Assembly (NCBI RefSeq): GCF_009905255.1
Contig: NZ_CP047602.1
Coordinates: 2,343,501-2,407,500 of the forward strand
Direction: 5' to 3'
Source: Thermoanaerobacterium aotearoense
Lineage (GTDB): Bacteria; Bacillota; Thermoanaerobacteria; Thermoanaerobacterales; Thermoanaerobacteraceae
DNA: 64,000 nt
The position numbers were made by a program, and so were the translations under genes. Numbering within the stretch: the first letter of the stretch is position 1; each line of letters starts with the position of its first letter. Positions 1-4,316 of this stretch are shown here, piece after piece. The notes beneath the pieces are model-generated. The model saw only the letters and a program-made list of their open reading frames with translations. It was not told the origin of the DNA and did not search any database.

Positions 1-729
1 ACTCCTTTCTGACTTTTCCACATTTCTGTACTTGCACATATAATAGCATTCCCTGTTTCTCTTTGAGTAATTACAGTCATCTGTCCTTTCAAAAGTTTCA
101 GGAAATTTGACATTCGATTCTTTCTCAAAAAATTCTACCGCTTCTTCTATTGATATCCTTGTGCATTTCTTGCAACATCTGGCACCACCAGCTTCACCGA
201 TGCTTTTAAGGGCATTTGCAACAGCTAAATGAGCCTTAGTCCTTTTAAGAGGTGTAAGAGGTGTCGCTTTGTAAATGACAGAAATAGCAACACCGATTCC
301 AACACCTGCACCACAGGCACCATAATAGCCGCATGCTCCGCCAGGTATCTCTTTCCCACGATTTATTGCCTCTAAGATATCCTCATCAGAAGCTTTTCCT
401 GTCAAATTTTTGTAAGCAGTGACTATTGCTGCAGGAACCAATGCATGATGTTCTGGCCCATGCATTGGTATCCTACTGTCTGACATGATATTTTCCACGA
501 TTTCCATAGGATCTTTAGAATCCGTAGACAGGCAATAATCCTTTATGACCTCAACGCCGTCCTTTGCGTGACATTTGTCGCAAACGTAGTGCCCATCCGT
601 ACAGTGGGCAAGAGTTAATTCTTCTGTACCACAGTATTCGCATTTTTTCAATACTGGCTTTTCTAAATACATGAGCGGCTTCCCGCATATCATGCAATTT
701 TCCATGTACTTTGTTTCGCAGCACTCCAT
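1..729 (-). CDS. DUF5714 protein, partial (C-terminus beyond window)
   Basis: I translated 243 codons by eye from ATG 729; the frame stays open to base 1, so the C-terminus is missing. The ATG at 732 is also in frame, but 729 gives better spacing (6 nt) from the AGGAG. The N-terminus is Cys-rich with paired cysteines (CMICG, CEYCG, CDKC), suggesting a zinc ribbon. A Gly/Cys-rich stretch follows (GGACGYYGACGAGVGIG), then GGARCCKKC. This pattern matches DUF5714 proteins, which often sit beside SAM methyltransferases; their biochemical function is not known to me. It is the last visible gene of the minus-strand operon with the thioredoxin reductase, radical SAM, Cys peptide and methyltransferase genes. 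The many cysteines suit a metal, Fe-S or thiol role, but that is inference. Confidence 0.8.
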   Translation of the reverse strand, partial: MECCETKYMENCMICGKPLMYLEKPVLKKCEYCGTEELTLAHCTDGHYVCDKCHAKDGVEVIKDYCLSTDSKDPMEIVENIMSDSRIPMHGPEHHALVPAAIVTAYKNLTGKASDEDILEAINRGKEIPGGACGYYGACGAGVGIGVAISVIYKATPLTPLKRTKAHLAVANALKSIGEAGGARCCKKCTRISIEEAVEFFEKESNVKFPETFERTDDCNYSKRNRECYYMCKYRNVEKSERS

Positions 730-766
730 CATTATCTCCTTTCATACTTTTTAAAAGTATGCAAAA

Positions 767-2035
767 TCACAGCTCTTGTATATACCTTTCTGCGCTTATA
801 GCAGCGGTAGCACCATCACCAGCCGCAGTGACCACTTGCCTTATCTTTTTATCTCTTATATCACCAGCGACAAATACGCCTTTCACATCGGTCATTAGAT
901 CCTCATTCGCTTTGATGTATCCGTACTGATTTAGCTCAAGCATTCCTTTAAATAGATCTGTCTTAGGTGTAAGGCCGATGTAGACAAACACACCATCGAT
1001 TTCTATATCTTTAAGCTCACCAGTCTTTAAGTTCTTGTACGTCAGCGACTTAAGCATTCCATCTCCATTTGCCTTTACAACGTGAGATTCCCAAATAAAG
1101 TCTATCTTAGGATTGGTAAAGGCTTTTTCTTGCAGCACGTTTGAAGCTTGTAAATTATCAAATTCGTGTATAACCGTAACTTTGTCGGCTATGTTTGCAA
1201 GGTACAATGCTTCCTGAATAGCAGAATTGCCTCCTCCTATTACAGCTACGTGTTTTCCTTCATACATTGCTCCATCGCATATTGCACAATAGTGAATGCC
1301 TTTTCCTCTGAATTCAGCTTCACCTTCTGCTGGAAGTTTTCTTGGCTGTGCGCCCATAGCTATTATAACCGCTTTAGGATAGTATATTTTGTCCTCTGTC
1401 CTTACAAATTTCTCATCATCAGTAAGCTTAATCTCGAATACTTCTTTTAAATCGTCAATGATTGCCCCAAAGCTTTCCGCCTGTTTCCTCATGTTTTCAG
1501 TCAGTTTCTTTCCTTCAATCTGCCCTTCTGTTCCAGGATAGTTTTCTATATAATACGTGTTGGCTGCTTGCCCACCTGTAGTTGCTTCATCTATGACGAC
1601 TGTCTTTAAGTTTGCTCTTGCTGAGTACAAAGCAGCCGTAAGACCTGCAGGTCCGCCACCCATTATGAGAACATCGCATTCCACCTTCTCTGGTTCTCTG
1701 TCCAAAAGTGAAAAACCTATCACCTTTTCTACTGCCTTGCGAAGATCTGGCTTTGAAATATATCCATTTAATCTCTCACCAGTTTCTTTGCCGTCTTTGA
1801 AAAACAAAAGCGTAGGGCTTCCTTTTACGCCAAGGCTTAACGCAAAGTCCTTATTGCCTTGCCTGTATATCTCTACAAATTCCATGTGATCTTTGTATAC
1901 CTCGGCTAATCTGTGAAATATCGGTTTTAGTTGAGCACATGGTGGACAATCAGTAGAATAAAAGTCTACAACAACTGGTTTCTTAGAATTCAAAACAACC
2001 TCTTCAAATTCATTAGCATTTATTTCTCTTACCAT
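767..2035 (-). CDS. trxB: Thioredoxin-thioredoxin reductase fusion protein
   Basis: This 422-residue protein carries a thioredoxin domain at residues 1-105 with active site CPPC at 30-33 and the cis-Pro motif GSPT. A flavoprotein thioredoxin reductase of about 310 residues follows, starting near residue 119. Its FAD motif is MGGGPAG, its redox pair is CAICD near residue 245, its NAD(P)H motif is GGGNSA, and its C-terminal FAD motif is GVFVAGDI. It should move electrons from NAD(P)H through FAD to the reductase dithiol and then to its own thioredoxin. The order thioredoxin-then-reductase is the reverse of the known mycobacterial TrxB-TrxA fusion. A strong Shine-Dalgarno precedes ATG 2035. It lies 22 nt after the radical SAM gene, so it probably supplies reducing power or disulfide reduction to that system. 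A generic antioxidant role is also possible. Confidence 0.93.
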   Translation of the reverse strand: MVREINANEFEEVVLNSKKPVVVDFYSTDCPPCAQLKPIFHRLAEVYKDHMEFVEIYRQGNKDFALSLGVKGSPTLLFFKDGKETGERLNGYISKPDLRKAVEKVIGFSLLDREPEKVECDVLIMGGGPAGLTAALYSARANLKTVVIDEATTGGQAANTYYIENYPGTEGQIEGKKLTENMRKQAESFGAIIDDLKEVFEIKLTDDEKFVRTEDKIYYPKAVIIAMGAQPRKLPAEGEAEFRGKGIHYCAICDGAMYEGKHVAVIGGGNSAIQEALYLANIADKVTVIHEFDNLQASNVLQEKAFTNPKIDFIWESHVVKANGDGMLKSLTYKNLKTGELKDIEIDGVFVYIGLTPKTDLFKGMLELNQYGYIKANEDLMTDVKGVFVAGDIRDKKIRQVVTAAGDGATAAISAERYIQEL

Positions 2036-2057
2036 AAATACATCCTCCTTAAAATTT

Positions 2058-3416
2058 TTAATCTTGAATTAAGACTTCATCCTTGTAATATTCGATACCT
2101 AATTGATACAGTTTTGTTATATCTCTACAATCAGGAGATAATACACTGCCATTTCTTTCATTGGCGACGACTCCACAGCCTCCGCCGCAAACTAAGCTTA
2201 CAGGGCATTCTTTGCACTGTGGTATATTCAAGACATTTCTCTCTTTCCACTGTAATACTTTATCATCAAAAATCCTTCTCTCAGGATAAAAAGTACCTAA
2301 GCGATAATCTTTCCTGCCACAGCTTGCAGTGCATCCGTATATATCACCGTATAAATCGTAAAGCCATTCTTTTTTGCCTGCTGGGCAAGTATCAAAAGTT
2401 GGAGAATACATAGTCCCTGAAACAAGGATATTCCTCATGCCTTTAAAATCTGGTTTATGGAATTTTTTCAGTATAGGATACTTTTTAGACATCTCTACAA
2501 ATGTAGCCCACTGTTCTACTTGTGACATAAGGCTTTGATGGTTTAGAGAACATTCAAAAAGCTCATAATTTCTGCCTATCTGCGTCTTGAATTTATTGCC
2601 ATCCAGATGGAGATACCCTTTTTTATCAAGAATTTCTGCCAACTCCGGCAGATAAGAATAATTGTCTTTATCCACCACAACCCTTAAATTCACAGGCATA
2701 TCATTCTCGATTAGGCTGTCAATTCCCAATAGAATCTTTTCAAAACTATCTCCACCGCCTAATAGCTTTCTTCGCCTGTTGTGAATTTCTTTCGGCCCAT
2801 CAAGAGTTACCTGTATTTCTTTCACATTTCCCTTTTTAAGGATATCTATATACTCTAATACATTGTAACCATTAGTAACTGCAGCTATCTCATAGCCGTA
2901 CAGTTTGCTCTTTTCTACAATGTAATTAATGATGTCTTTTTGAACATCTGTATCTATAAAAGGCTCTCCTCCAAAGAGCGTAATGTACGGCTTTACCTTC
3001 TCCAATTTAAACCTATCATTTATATCATCAAAAAAGGCATCAACAGCCTCTTTCGTTATTAAATCTTTCTTTGTCGGTATGCCTCTTTCATAACAATAGA
3101 TGCAAGAAAAATTACATCCGTATGTTGGCACAAGCAATATTTGTGTCGGCGATTCATCCATTATTTCCTTAAATTCTTCGTACGCTTCTTTTATCCTTAT
3201 ATCCTCATGCTCTTTTTCTTCATATATATAGCCTCTATCAATTACATAATCGAGAAAATCGATGTCGTAAACATCCTTTCCCGATTTTATGTCATAAAGC
3301 TTATCTACCTCATCTTTTGAAGCAATATCTGAACTGCCTGATAGCAGATTTAAAATAATAAAATTATTTTTCTCTTCACTAAAAGGCAGAATCATGTTAT
3401 ACTTACTAAAGTACAA
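2058..3416 (-). CDS. Radical SAM/SPASM protein, likely peptide maturase
   Basis: The protein has about 452 residues. An N-terminal segment of roughly 95 residues precedes the radical SAM core. The core carries CNFSCIYC near residue 101 (CxxxCxxC, binding the SAM [4Fe-4S] cluster) and the GGEP motif. A C-terminal SPASM-type region follows with many cysteines (CPAGK, GCTASCG, CKECP, CGGGCG) for auxiliary clusters. SPASM proteins typically modify ribosomal peptides or protein side chains. GTG 3425 overlaps the AAGGAG; TTG 3416 sits 8 nt from it and gives the N-terminus MYFSKYN, so I chose TTG. Directly upstream is a 35-codon Cys-rich peptide gene, the natural candidate substrate. The gene lies between that peptide and the thioredoxin-reductase fusion. 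I infer a RiPP maturase; anaerobic sulfatase-type maturation is less likely because no sulfatase is present. Confidence 0.9.
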   Translation of the reverse strand: MYFSKYNMILPFSEEKNNFIILNLLSGSSDIASKDEVDKLYDIKSGKDVYDIDFLDYVIDRGYIYEEKEHEDIRIKEAYEEFKEIMDESPTQILLVPTYGCNFSCIYCYERGIPTKKDLITKEAVDAFFDDINDRFKLEKVKPYITLFGGEPFIDTDVQKDIINYIVEKSKLYGYEIAAVTNGYNVLEYIDILKKGNVKEIQVTLDGPKEIHNRRRKLLGGGDSFEKILLGIDSLIENDMPVNLRVVVDKDNYSYLPELAEILDKKGYLHLDGNKFKTQIGRNYELFECSLNHQSLMSQVEQWATFVEMSKKYPILKKFHKPDFKGMRNILVSGTMYSPTFDTCPAGKKEWLYDLYGDIYGCTASCGRKDYRLGTFYPERRIFDDKVLQWKERNVLNIPQCKECPVSLVCGGGCGVVANERNGSVLSPDCRDITKLYQLGIEYYKDEVLIQD

Positions 3417-3435
3417 TAAAATCACTCCTTAATTT

Positions 3436-3458
3436 ATGCGGTAGAAGATCTACCGCAT
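3436..3458 (-). other. Intercistronic stem-loop between Cys peptide and maturase
   Basis: The arms ATGCGGTAGA and TCTACCGCAT form a perfect 10-bp stem with a 3-nt loop. It starts a few bases after the peptide stop codon, upstream of the radical SAM Shine-Dalgarno. On the operon (minus) strand no U-run follows, so it is not a full intrinsic terminator there; the T-run lies on the plus strand. It probably stabilises the peptide mRNA end or partly attenuates, which would give more precursor than maturase. The role is inferred. Confidence 0.7.
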
Positions 3459-3462
3459 TTTT

Positions 3463-3570
3463 TTAGTCATGGCAACCTACAACCAGCTTCGATGACTTTG
3501 AGCAGCATTGTGCTACGCTGCTATTTTGTGTTGTGCAGCAATTTGAATTTTTATTTGTTACAGCTTTCAC
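3463..3570 (-). CDS. Small Cys-rich peptide, candidate RiPP precursor (35 aa)
   Basis: GTG 3570 follows a strong Shine-Dalgarno (AAAGGAGGTG) after the methyltransferase stop; the frame ends with TAA at 3463-3465. The 35-residue product starts MKAVTNKN. It has two vicinal Cys pairs, C11-C12 and C22-C23, the second with a preceding Gln (QCC), and ends GCHD with C33. Residues 13-28 are mostly Ser, Thr, Asn, Gln and Lys. It has no signal peptide or membrane segment. It lies immediately upstream of a radical SAM/SPASM gene and is separated from it by a stem-loop, the usual layout of a precursor-maturase pair. The Lys/Asn N-terminus could be the leader and the Cys-rich remainder the core. I infer a RiPP or metal/thiol-binding peptide. 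Alternatives are a metallochaperone-like peptide or a regulatory leader ORF. Confidence 0.75.
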   Translation of the reverse strand: MKAVTNKNSNCCTTQNSSVAQCCSKSSKLVVGCHD

Positions 3571-3599
3571 CTAAATCACCTCCTTTTAATGCAAGATAT

Positions 3600-4229
3600 C
3601 TACCTTTTAATACCTTTGATCGTTATACTTGCAACAGGATAACCGTTTTTCATGTATTCACGCTTTTTAAGATATTCTATCTCTTTAAATCCAGCATTGT
3701 TTATGGCTTTTATATATTCTTCTTCCGGAATAGCTCCGCCAAAGCAATCAGCCCAAGCTTCAGGGTCATTTACAATCTCATCTGGAAGTCTGTCTTTTGA
3801 TACAACGTCTGAAACGACAAATCTCCCACCAGTCTTAAGAACCCTGTAAATCTCTTTATAGACTTTCTCTTTGTCTTTTGCATGATTTATTACGCAGTCG
3901 CTTATGACAACGTCAAATTTTTCACTTTGAAGTGGTATGTTTTCTACATCCCCTACGACAAATTCAGCATTTTTTACATTAAGCTTCTTTCTGTTTTTTT
4001 CTGCTTCTTCGATCATCCTCTCAGTAAGATCGAGACCTACTGCAATTGCTTTTTCACCTATTATCTTCGCAGCATTTAAAACGTCATTTCCTCTGCCGCA
4101 TCCTAAATCAAGGACATTTTCTCCTTCTTTTAAATCTGCCAAAACGATATTTTTACCGCCACAGCTTAAATTGTCCTCTTCTTCAGCTAATTTTTCATAT
4201 CTATTTATTATGTTTTCTTTCGCTTCCAT
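3600..4229 (-). CDS. ArsM-like SAM-dependent methyltransferase
   Basis: Counted from ATG 4229 (GGTGGTGACGAG upstream), the protein has 209 residues. A longer open frame to 4310 would put the promoter inside the gene, so I reject it. A class I methyltransferase fold is visible: SAM motif I is LDLGCGRGND and motif II/post I is VGLDLTERMI. Three cysteines resemble those of arsenite methyltransferases: an early SCGG, CVINHAKDK in the middle, and CFGGA near the C-terminus. These match the As(III)-binding cysteines of ArsM in context. It is shorter than typical ArsM (about 260-380) and lacks the usual C-terminal extension. It is the first gene of an operon with a Cys peptide and a radical SAM enzyme. 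The substrate could be arsenic or another thiophilic element, or a peptide thiol; arsenic is not proven. Confidence 0.85.
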   Translation of the reverse strand: MEAKENIINRYEKLAEEEDNLSCGGKNIVLADLKEGENVLDLGCGRGNDVLNAAKIIGEKAIAVGLDLTERMIEEAEKNRKKLNVKNAEFVVGDVENIPLQSEKFDVVISDCVINHAKDKEKVYKEIYRVLKTGGRFVVSDVVSKDRLPDEIVNDPEAWADCFGGAIPEEEYIKAINNAGFKEIEYLKKREYMKNGYPVASITIKGIKR

Positions 4230-4258
4230 CTCGTCACCACCTTTTACCAAAGACATAT

Positions 4259-4272
4259 CCCCTATATAGGGG
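4259..4272. promoter_or_regulatory. CsoR/CstR-like palindromic operator
   Basis: CCCCTATATAGGGG is a perfect 14-bp palindrome in the 5' UTR of the methyltransferase operon, about 10-20 nt downstream of the expected start. G-tracts around a TATA core flanked by AT-rich DNA resemble sites of the CsoR/RcnR/CstR family (copper, nickel, persulfide or formaldehyde sensors). No such regulator gene is in the window, so the assignment is inferred from the motif only. Confidence 0.5.
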
Positions 4273-4287
4273 GTGGTACTAAATGAT

Positions 4288-4316
4288 AGTATACCACAAT
4301 AATTTAACAAAGTAAA
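4288..4316 (-). promoter_or_regulatory. Sigma-A-type promoter of the methyltransferase/peptide operon
   Basis: On the minus strand, TTTACT (4316-4311) and TATACT (4293-4288) are separated by 17 nt. Transcription would start near 4281 and read through the palindrome at 4259-4272 into the ATG at 4229. Confidence 0.6.

Follow-up and report, generated by a model that had tools for sequence, protein, structure and literature searches.

A 64,000-nucleotide window of the Thermoanaerobacterium aotearoense genome (RefSeq assembly GCF_009905255.1, NZ_CP047602.1; C1:2343501-2407500 of a single 2.67 Mb genome contig) opens with a minus-strand cassette. It encodes a methyltransferase of an ArsM subfamily that depends on S-adenosylmethionine (SAM; the enzyme is MT1 below), a short cysteine-rich peptide, a radical SAM enzyme with a SPASM domain, a thioredoxin-thioredoxin reductase (Trx-TrxR) fusion and a DUF5714 protein. 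The peptide, the radical SAM enzyme and the MT1 subfamily are inherited one-to-one, and the cassette itself is well supported by sequence comparison. Its joint inheritance across at least six phyla points to a previously undescribed, peptide-based handling of a toxic, sulfur-loving element, for example arsenic.

Joint inheritance of the cassette genes

Inheritance was followed in a sample of 398 genomes of the phylum, in which a radical SAM orthologue was defined by a profile score of at least 550 bits and a member of the MT1 subfamily by at least 250 bits. The radical SAM profile returned 20 genomes at 550-719 bits, with the next match at 293 bits; the 20 top genomes of the MT1 profile (251-334 bits) were the identical 20, and here the next match stood at 215 bits. 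A degenerate DNA pattern of the peptide core matched 19 times in the 398 genomes, never more than once per genome and in every case adjoining the radical SAM orthologue, while the reversed control pattern gave no match in the same sample. The twentieth radical SAM genome (G276) carries a peptide with a Ser-to-Ala change and was missed by the pattern for that reason; the peptide is thus kept in 20 of 20 genomes that have the radical SAM gene. Within the genus, comparison of the window peptide with seven homologues gives 44 codon changes that are synonymous and 2 that are not, counted pairwise against this one reference and not independent events. The position of the pattern matches beside the radical SAM gene, the invariance of the core and the mostly synonymous changes rule out a chance open reading frame and, as judged from conservation, the peptide frame is a genuine gene. 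It occupies the same position in every examined member of the genus as well as in two members of the order, and it is also found in a genome of another family in which the radical SAM enzyme is 47% identical.

A search of genome contigs with the radical SAM alignment added 27 loci (L035-L061) from Desulfosporosinus, Clostridium, Sinanaerobacter, Anaeromyxobacter and other Myxococcales, Bacteroidales, Ignavibacteria, Spirochaetia and Leptospiraceae; nearly all show 38-50% identity and one, L059, shows 31%. The peptide lies adjacent to or near the radical SAM gene in 36 of 39 loci (at L061 it was recognised by its motif). The three others are L042, where the contig stops soon after the radical SAM gene, L044, which is rearranged and at a contig edge, and the divergent L059. 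The cassette core is kept in at least six bacterial phyla, including Bacteroidota, Myxococcota, spirochaetes, Leptospiraceae and Ignavibacteria.

The original prediction had placed five families in one system, and four of these, MT1, peptide, radical SAM enzyme and Trx-TrxR, do recur together across phyla. Neither of the two outcomes that would have refuted it, loss of the peptide frame from relatives that keep the radical SAM gene and rare co-occurrence of the genes, was observed. The fusion protein, which scores 362.2 bits against TIGR01292 (cut-off 343.45), is found at nearly all loci, recurs beside the radical SAM gene in other phyla and was not seen in L178. DUF5714 is accessory yet associated, and is linked more loosely than the other members: 17 of the 20 system genomes have a DUF5714 protein, versus 30 of 378 others (Fisher p = 8e-15, phylogeny not corrected), it is local or fused at many loci, and in six Firmicutes loci (L036-L041) the domain forms the C-terminus of the radical SAM enzyme itself. 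At one locus (G005; L188 8833-9930) an OrfB_IS605 (TnpB-like) element replaces the Trx-TrxR, DUF5714 and DUF302 genes found in the rest of the genus while MT1, peptide and radical SAM enzyme remain, an arrangement that reads as a natural partial deletion.

A divergent locus was noted in a Desulfobacteraceae metagenome-assembled genome (L059 4333-4533), where a 66-residue peptide ending SVAFCCSKASLDERDINQCTQCVI is encoded directly upstream of the radical SAM gene of 31% identity, among fatty-acid-synthase-like genes and without an ArsM-like enzyme. It is apparently a sister family that shares the CCSKxS motif.

Conserved residues, folds and nearest known families

The peptides share an invariant C-terminal core, AQCC-[SA]-K-x-S-x4-G-C-H-[DN]-stop, in which the A, Q, C, C, K, G, C and H positions are kept in 49 of 49 loci and the Ser in 48 of 49, the final residue being D or N. 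The two CC pairs and the length of 35 residues that had been reported for the window copy are correct, but only the second pair is universal; the N-terminal pair is optional, and its absence from Bacteroidota, Leptospiraceae and others excludes it from the essential core. No NCBIfam (June 2026) or Pfam family claims the peptide.

In the radical SAM enzyme the CxxxCxxC motif and all seven SPASM cysteines are present at each position in at least 36 of 39 sequences, the remainder being gaps or one divergent member, and a further conserved residue, C289 (window numbering), lies in a GRNYEL(x)2C motif. An AlphaFold2 model (mean predicted local distance difference test, pLDDT, 89) contains a beta3-alpha2 N-terminal domain of the type found in RiPP recognition elements (RRE; RiPP, ribosomally synthesized and post-translationally modified peptide), and its best fold matches, CteB, anSME, TigE and SuiB, all modify peptides. 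None of the three group members scored reached a curated maturase cut-off: scores fell far under those for CefB (161 of 600 bits), TIGR04463 (136 of 525) and SCIFF (85 of 425), which rules out the named maturase families, PapB and others included. The suggestion of a SPASM-type RiPP layout is supported by the adjacent conserved precursor, the full cysteine motifs, the predicted RRE-like N-terminus and the lack of a curated family claiming the enzyme.

The best relatives of MT1 in the Protein Data Bank (PDB) are ArsM enzymes (94 bits). Residues C23 and C112 align to residues 72 and 174 of 4kw7 and C162 to the third conserved motif cysteine; all three are invariant in 37 of 37 cassette members. 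MT1 nevertheless scores 214.6 bits against the curated ArsM model NF008823 (cut-off 263), which rules out a canonical ArsM. The many further matches to the MT1 profile, from about 206 bits downwards, correspond to ordinary ArsM in length and range. One MT1-like domain of 215 bits (G312:C5:49068-49670), inside a 790-residue open frame of a genome that also has the cassette, lies by score between the cassette-type MT1 and ordinary ArsM. The DUF5714 protein matches PF18978 at 212 bits; its AlphaFold2 model (8 sequences, pLDDT 75) found no PDB fold match at E<=0.001 and thus offered no functional hint.

Set against known systems, the cassette resembles the radical SAM RiPPs with SPASM maturases (ranthipeptide/SCIFF CteB, CefB, TIGR04463, PapB, TigE) in pairing a short cysteine-rich precursor with a SPASM maturase, here one with a predicted RRE-like N-terminus, and CteB is both the best fold and the sole PDB sequence match of its radical SAM enzyme. 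It departs from them in a maturase far below the cut-offs, a peptide core found in no family, and obligate ArsM-like and Trx-TrxR partners. With the ArsM arsenite methyltransferases (PRK11873/NF008823; 4fr0, 4kw7, 5evj) MT1 shares the fold, the SAM motifs and the three metalloid cysteines, but it falls below the cut-off, is shorter, carries an invariant His after CVIN and clusters apart by profile, in a group that is inherited with the peptide only. ArsM-like methyltransferases and a DUF5714-type protein, MbdU, also figure among the selenoprotein neighbourhoods that PMC13188914 lists from Haft and Tolstoy 2025; the MbdU model scores 164 bits against the window DUF5714 protein, short of its cut-off of 600, the cassette has cysteine in place of selenocysteine, and the accessible part of PMC13188914 contains no set of peptide, radical SAM enzyme and Trx-TrxR. 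The idea of a modified cysteine peptide holding a soft metal is shared with the copper-binding RiPPs, which are MNIO thiooxazole metallophores (PMC13097082, PMC12538549), whereas the cassette maturase is a radical SAM/SPASM enzyme with ArsM-like and Trx-TrxR partners. In line with the original prediction, no description of the peptide or of this exact gene set was found in NCBIfam (June 2026), Pfam or the open-licence literature. The architecture follows a known plan, that of radical SAM RiPPs; new are the combination of partners and the core of the peptide.

Operon layout and candidate regulatory sites

All five predicted frames were found on the minus strand and in the predicted order within window positions 1-4316 (Table 1). 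The operon is not limited to five genes, however; it comprises seven, extending past the window edge through DUF302 and MT2, and is followed by a tRNA-Glu gene. A single sigma-70-like promoter site lies upstream; such matches are common by chance and are weak evidence alone.

Table 1. Coordinates of the operon genes and associated sites (window positions, or positions in L002 where indicated)
Feature	Position	Strand	Details
MT1, ArsM-subfamily SAM-dependent methyltransferase	3600..4229	-	209 aa, ATG start
Precursor peptide	3463..3570	-	35 aa, GTG start after GGAGGTGA, sequence MKAVTNKNSNCCTTQNSSVAQCCSKSSKLVVGCHD
Radical SAM/SPASM maturase (predicted), RRE-like N-terminus	2058..3416	-	452 aa, TTG start set by aligning relatives
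Thioredoxin (CPPC)-thioredoxin reductase (CAICD) fusion	767..2035	-	422 aa
DUF5714 protein, Cys-rich zinc-ribbon-like N-terminus	1..732; L002:9983-10732	-	runs off the window, end 18 bases outside
DUF302 protein	L002:9610-9993		outside the window, after DUF5714
MT2, second methyltransferase	L002:9048-9575		outside the window, after DUF302
Promoter-like site TTTACT-N17-TATACT	4288..4316	-	consensus scan, 9/12, TG before -10
14-bp palindrome CCCCTATATAGGGG, candidate CsoR/RcnR-type operator	4259..4272		just downstream of -10
10-bp stem-loop	3436..3458		directly 3' of the peptide stop codon, before the radical SAM gene

No site of this kind in the genome scores better than the operon palindrome, which is kept, with variants, in the genus. 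Palindromes with G/C tracts of this type are typical of CsoR-RcnR repressors (PMC10318464). Sites of the form TACCC-N3-GGGG(G)TA also precede MT1 in several other Firmicutes, at 8 of 41 loci versus 0.7 expected, some of the eight being near-identical pairs and therefore representing fewer lineages than eight; such operators were confined to some Firmicutes. The genome holds two CsoR-family genes, one of which heads a csoR-trxA pair (L033) with a similar site, and the second-best copy of the palindrome (L116 1501-1516; G000:C1:1610198) immediately precedes a DsbD-redoxin gene pair. Together with the operon palindrome, these candidate sites suggest a thiol-stress regulon, possibly a CsoR-family thiol-redox one. 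Both CsoR-family proteins retain the metal-sensor pattern Cys-His-Cys, and neither matches any persulfide-sensor model; one is nearest to the copper sensor RicR (78 of 175 bits). At half of the loci (20 of 40) a strong hairpin, with a z-score below -2, directly follows the peptide stop codon, its stem differing in sequence from locus to locus without recognisable relation; it would suit, we infer, a need for peptide in excess over enzyme.

Proposed function and alternatives

Anaerobes methylate arsenic and other metalloids, and anaerobes of this kind usually lack glutathione. For reductive methylation of the ArsM type Trx-TrxR is the expected electron donor, as established for ArsM/AS3MT. We hypothesize that the cassette makes an intracellular RiPP thiol carrier that works with an ArsM-type enzyme and an NADPH-thioredoxin reductase on a thiophilic metalloid, As(III) in the first place, an assignment that we favor tentatively and hold to be somewhat short of an even chance. 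The radical SAM enzyme would bind the short basic leader through its predicted RRE and modify Cys, His or nearby residues of the core; a Cys thioether is what its nearest structural relatives would form by default. After maturation the peptide would remain inside the cell, as the loci compared show no conserved exporter or protease in or beside the cassette, and might there carry a thiophilic trivalent metalloid, most likely As(III), on its thiols with high affinity. MT1 has three ArsM-type cysteines that correspond to those binding As(III); it would then methylate the peptide-bound element, and Trx-TrxR would pass electrons from NADPH to re-reduce MT1 and peptide in place of glutathione. The Cys-rich DUF5714 protein may act as a partner in loading or receiving the peptide, and in Firmicutes a CsoR-family repressor would free the operon under thiophile or thiol stress. 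A bolder form of this proposal is conceivable but doubtful: the ArsM-type methyltransferase would receive its metalloid on a co-substrate, the ribosomally made thiol peptide matured by the radical SAM enzyme, and this gene-encoded carrier would take the place of glutathione in metalloid detoxification, widespread in anaerobic bacteria and undescribed before. A peptide inherited one-to-one with an ArsM-type enzyme is a concrete candidate for the metalloid-presenting thiol of glutathione-free cells. Whatever the element, the peptides, with their fixed and distinctive core, constitute a predicted RiPP family that spans many phyla, lies outside NCBIfam and is ready for co-expression tests.

Several observations weigh against the proposal of an As(III) carrier. 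The invariant His of MT1 stands where ArsM has Leu or Ser, and at about 209 residues the enzyme is without the ArsM C-terminal part. ArsR, ArsP-type permease, ArsC-like or Pst genes beside L036, L037, L040 and L048 speak for arsenic, but arsenic genes flank only a minority of loci. Genes for DUF302, DUF1847, rhodanese and SQR-like proteins are no rarer as neighbours, and Acr3 shows only a weak excess, being present in 14 of 17 system genomes versus 12 of 24 random and 16 of 19 ordinary-ArsM genomes. The operator type is also one used by copper and persulfide sensors. Arsenic genes are too sparse for the neighbourhood to serve as proof; arsenic is favored over selenium because of the MT1 cysteines, and the neighbouring genes do not single it out. 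Selenium is a weak alternative: MT1 and DUF5714 relatives include selenoproteins, whereas no selenium-specific neighbour stood out and the system genes read have cysteine.

Since the neighbouring genes fail to settle the element, sulfane sulfur and copper stay as alternatives. The peptide could be a persulfide carrier or a dithiol buffer reduced by Trx-TrxR, with MT1 methylating sulfide or thiols and a CstR-like CsoR-family repressor sensing reactive sulfur. Neighbours in several phyla would suit such a role (DUF302, DUF1847, once fused to rhodanese, an SQR-like flavoprotein, a CoA-disulfide-reductase-rhodanese and OsmC), as would the other candidate CsoR-type sites, which all precede thiol-disulfide genes. 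We consider it unlikely, although a serious contender, because it leaves the three invariant ArsM-type cysteines of MT1 unexplained and because both CsoR-family proteins have the metal-sensor pattern and no match to any persulfide-sensor model. Copper is much less probable. A CsoR-controlled, modified Cys/His peptide chelating Cu(I), in a role like that of methanobactin or bufferins, would account for the CsoR-type operators, the resemblance to RicR and the CC..CH ligand set, but no copper ATPase or chaperone was seen by any locus read, the operators occur in some Firmicutes only, and neither an ArsM-type enzyme nor Trx-TrxR has a known role in copper chelation.

The remaining explanations concern the partners of the peptide rather than its cargo. 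MT1 might tailor the RiPP by S-, N- or O-methylation after cross-linking by the radical SAM enzyme, the product being a cofactor or a peptide for secretion or signalling; one-to-one inheritance of MT1 and peptide is the pattern of a tailoring enzyme, RiPP methyltransferases exist, and one of them, LahSB, is a distant PDB match of MT1 (54 bits). With MT1 far nearer to ArsM and equipped with metal-binding cysteines, and with no conserved exporter or protease by the cassette, we regard this as quite improbable. It is very improbable, on a par with copper chelation, that the peptide is genuine but unmodified and metallothionein-like, the radical SAM enzyme having another substrate. Short Cys-rich proteins can bind metals without modification, yet the enzyme has an RRE-like N-terminus and a full SPASM motif and is inherited one-to-one with the peptide, and even the divergent enzyme of L059 has a CCSKAS peptide directly upstream. 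Matches in PADLOC reflect only the methyltransferase and radical SAM superfamilies, and a defence system was rejected.

Two observations at other loci are recorded here. DUF1847 proteins recur by the cassette in several lineages (L039 1267-2169, L051, L054, L056 and L185), one of them as a rhodanese fusion. A related genome (G058) carries, at L015, tandem SPASM radical SAM genes with a short Cys peptide upstream that ends ACINLCCWNCCFQI, which is another uncharacterised Cys-peptide system.

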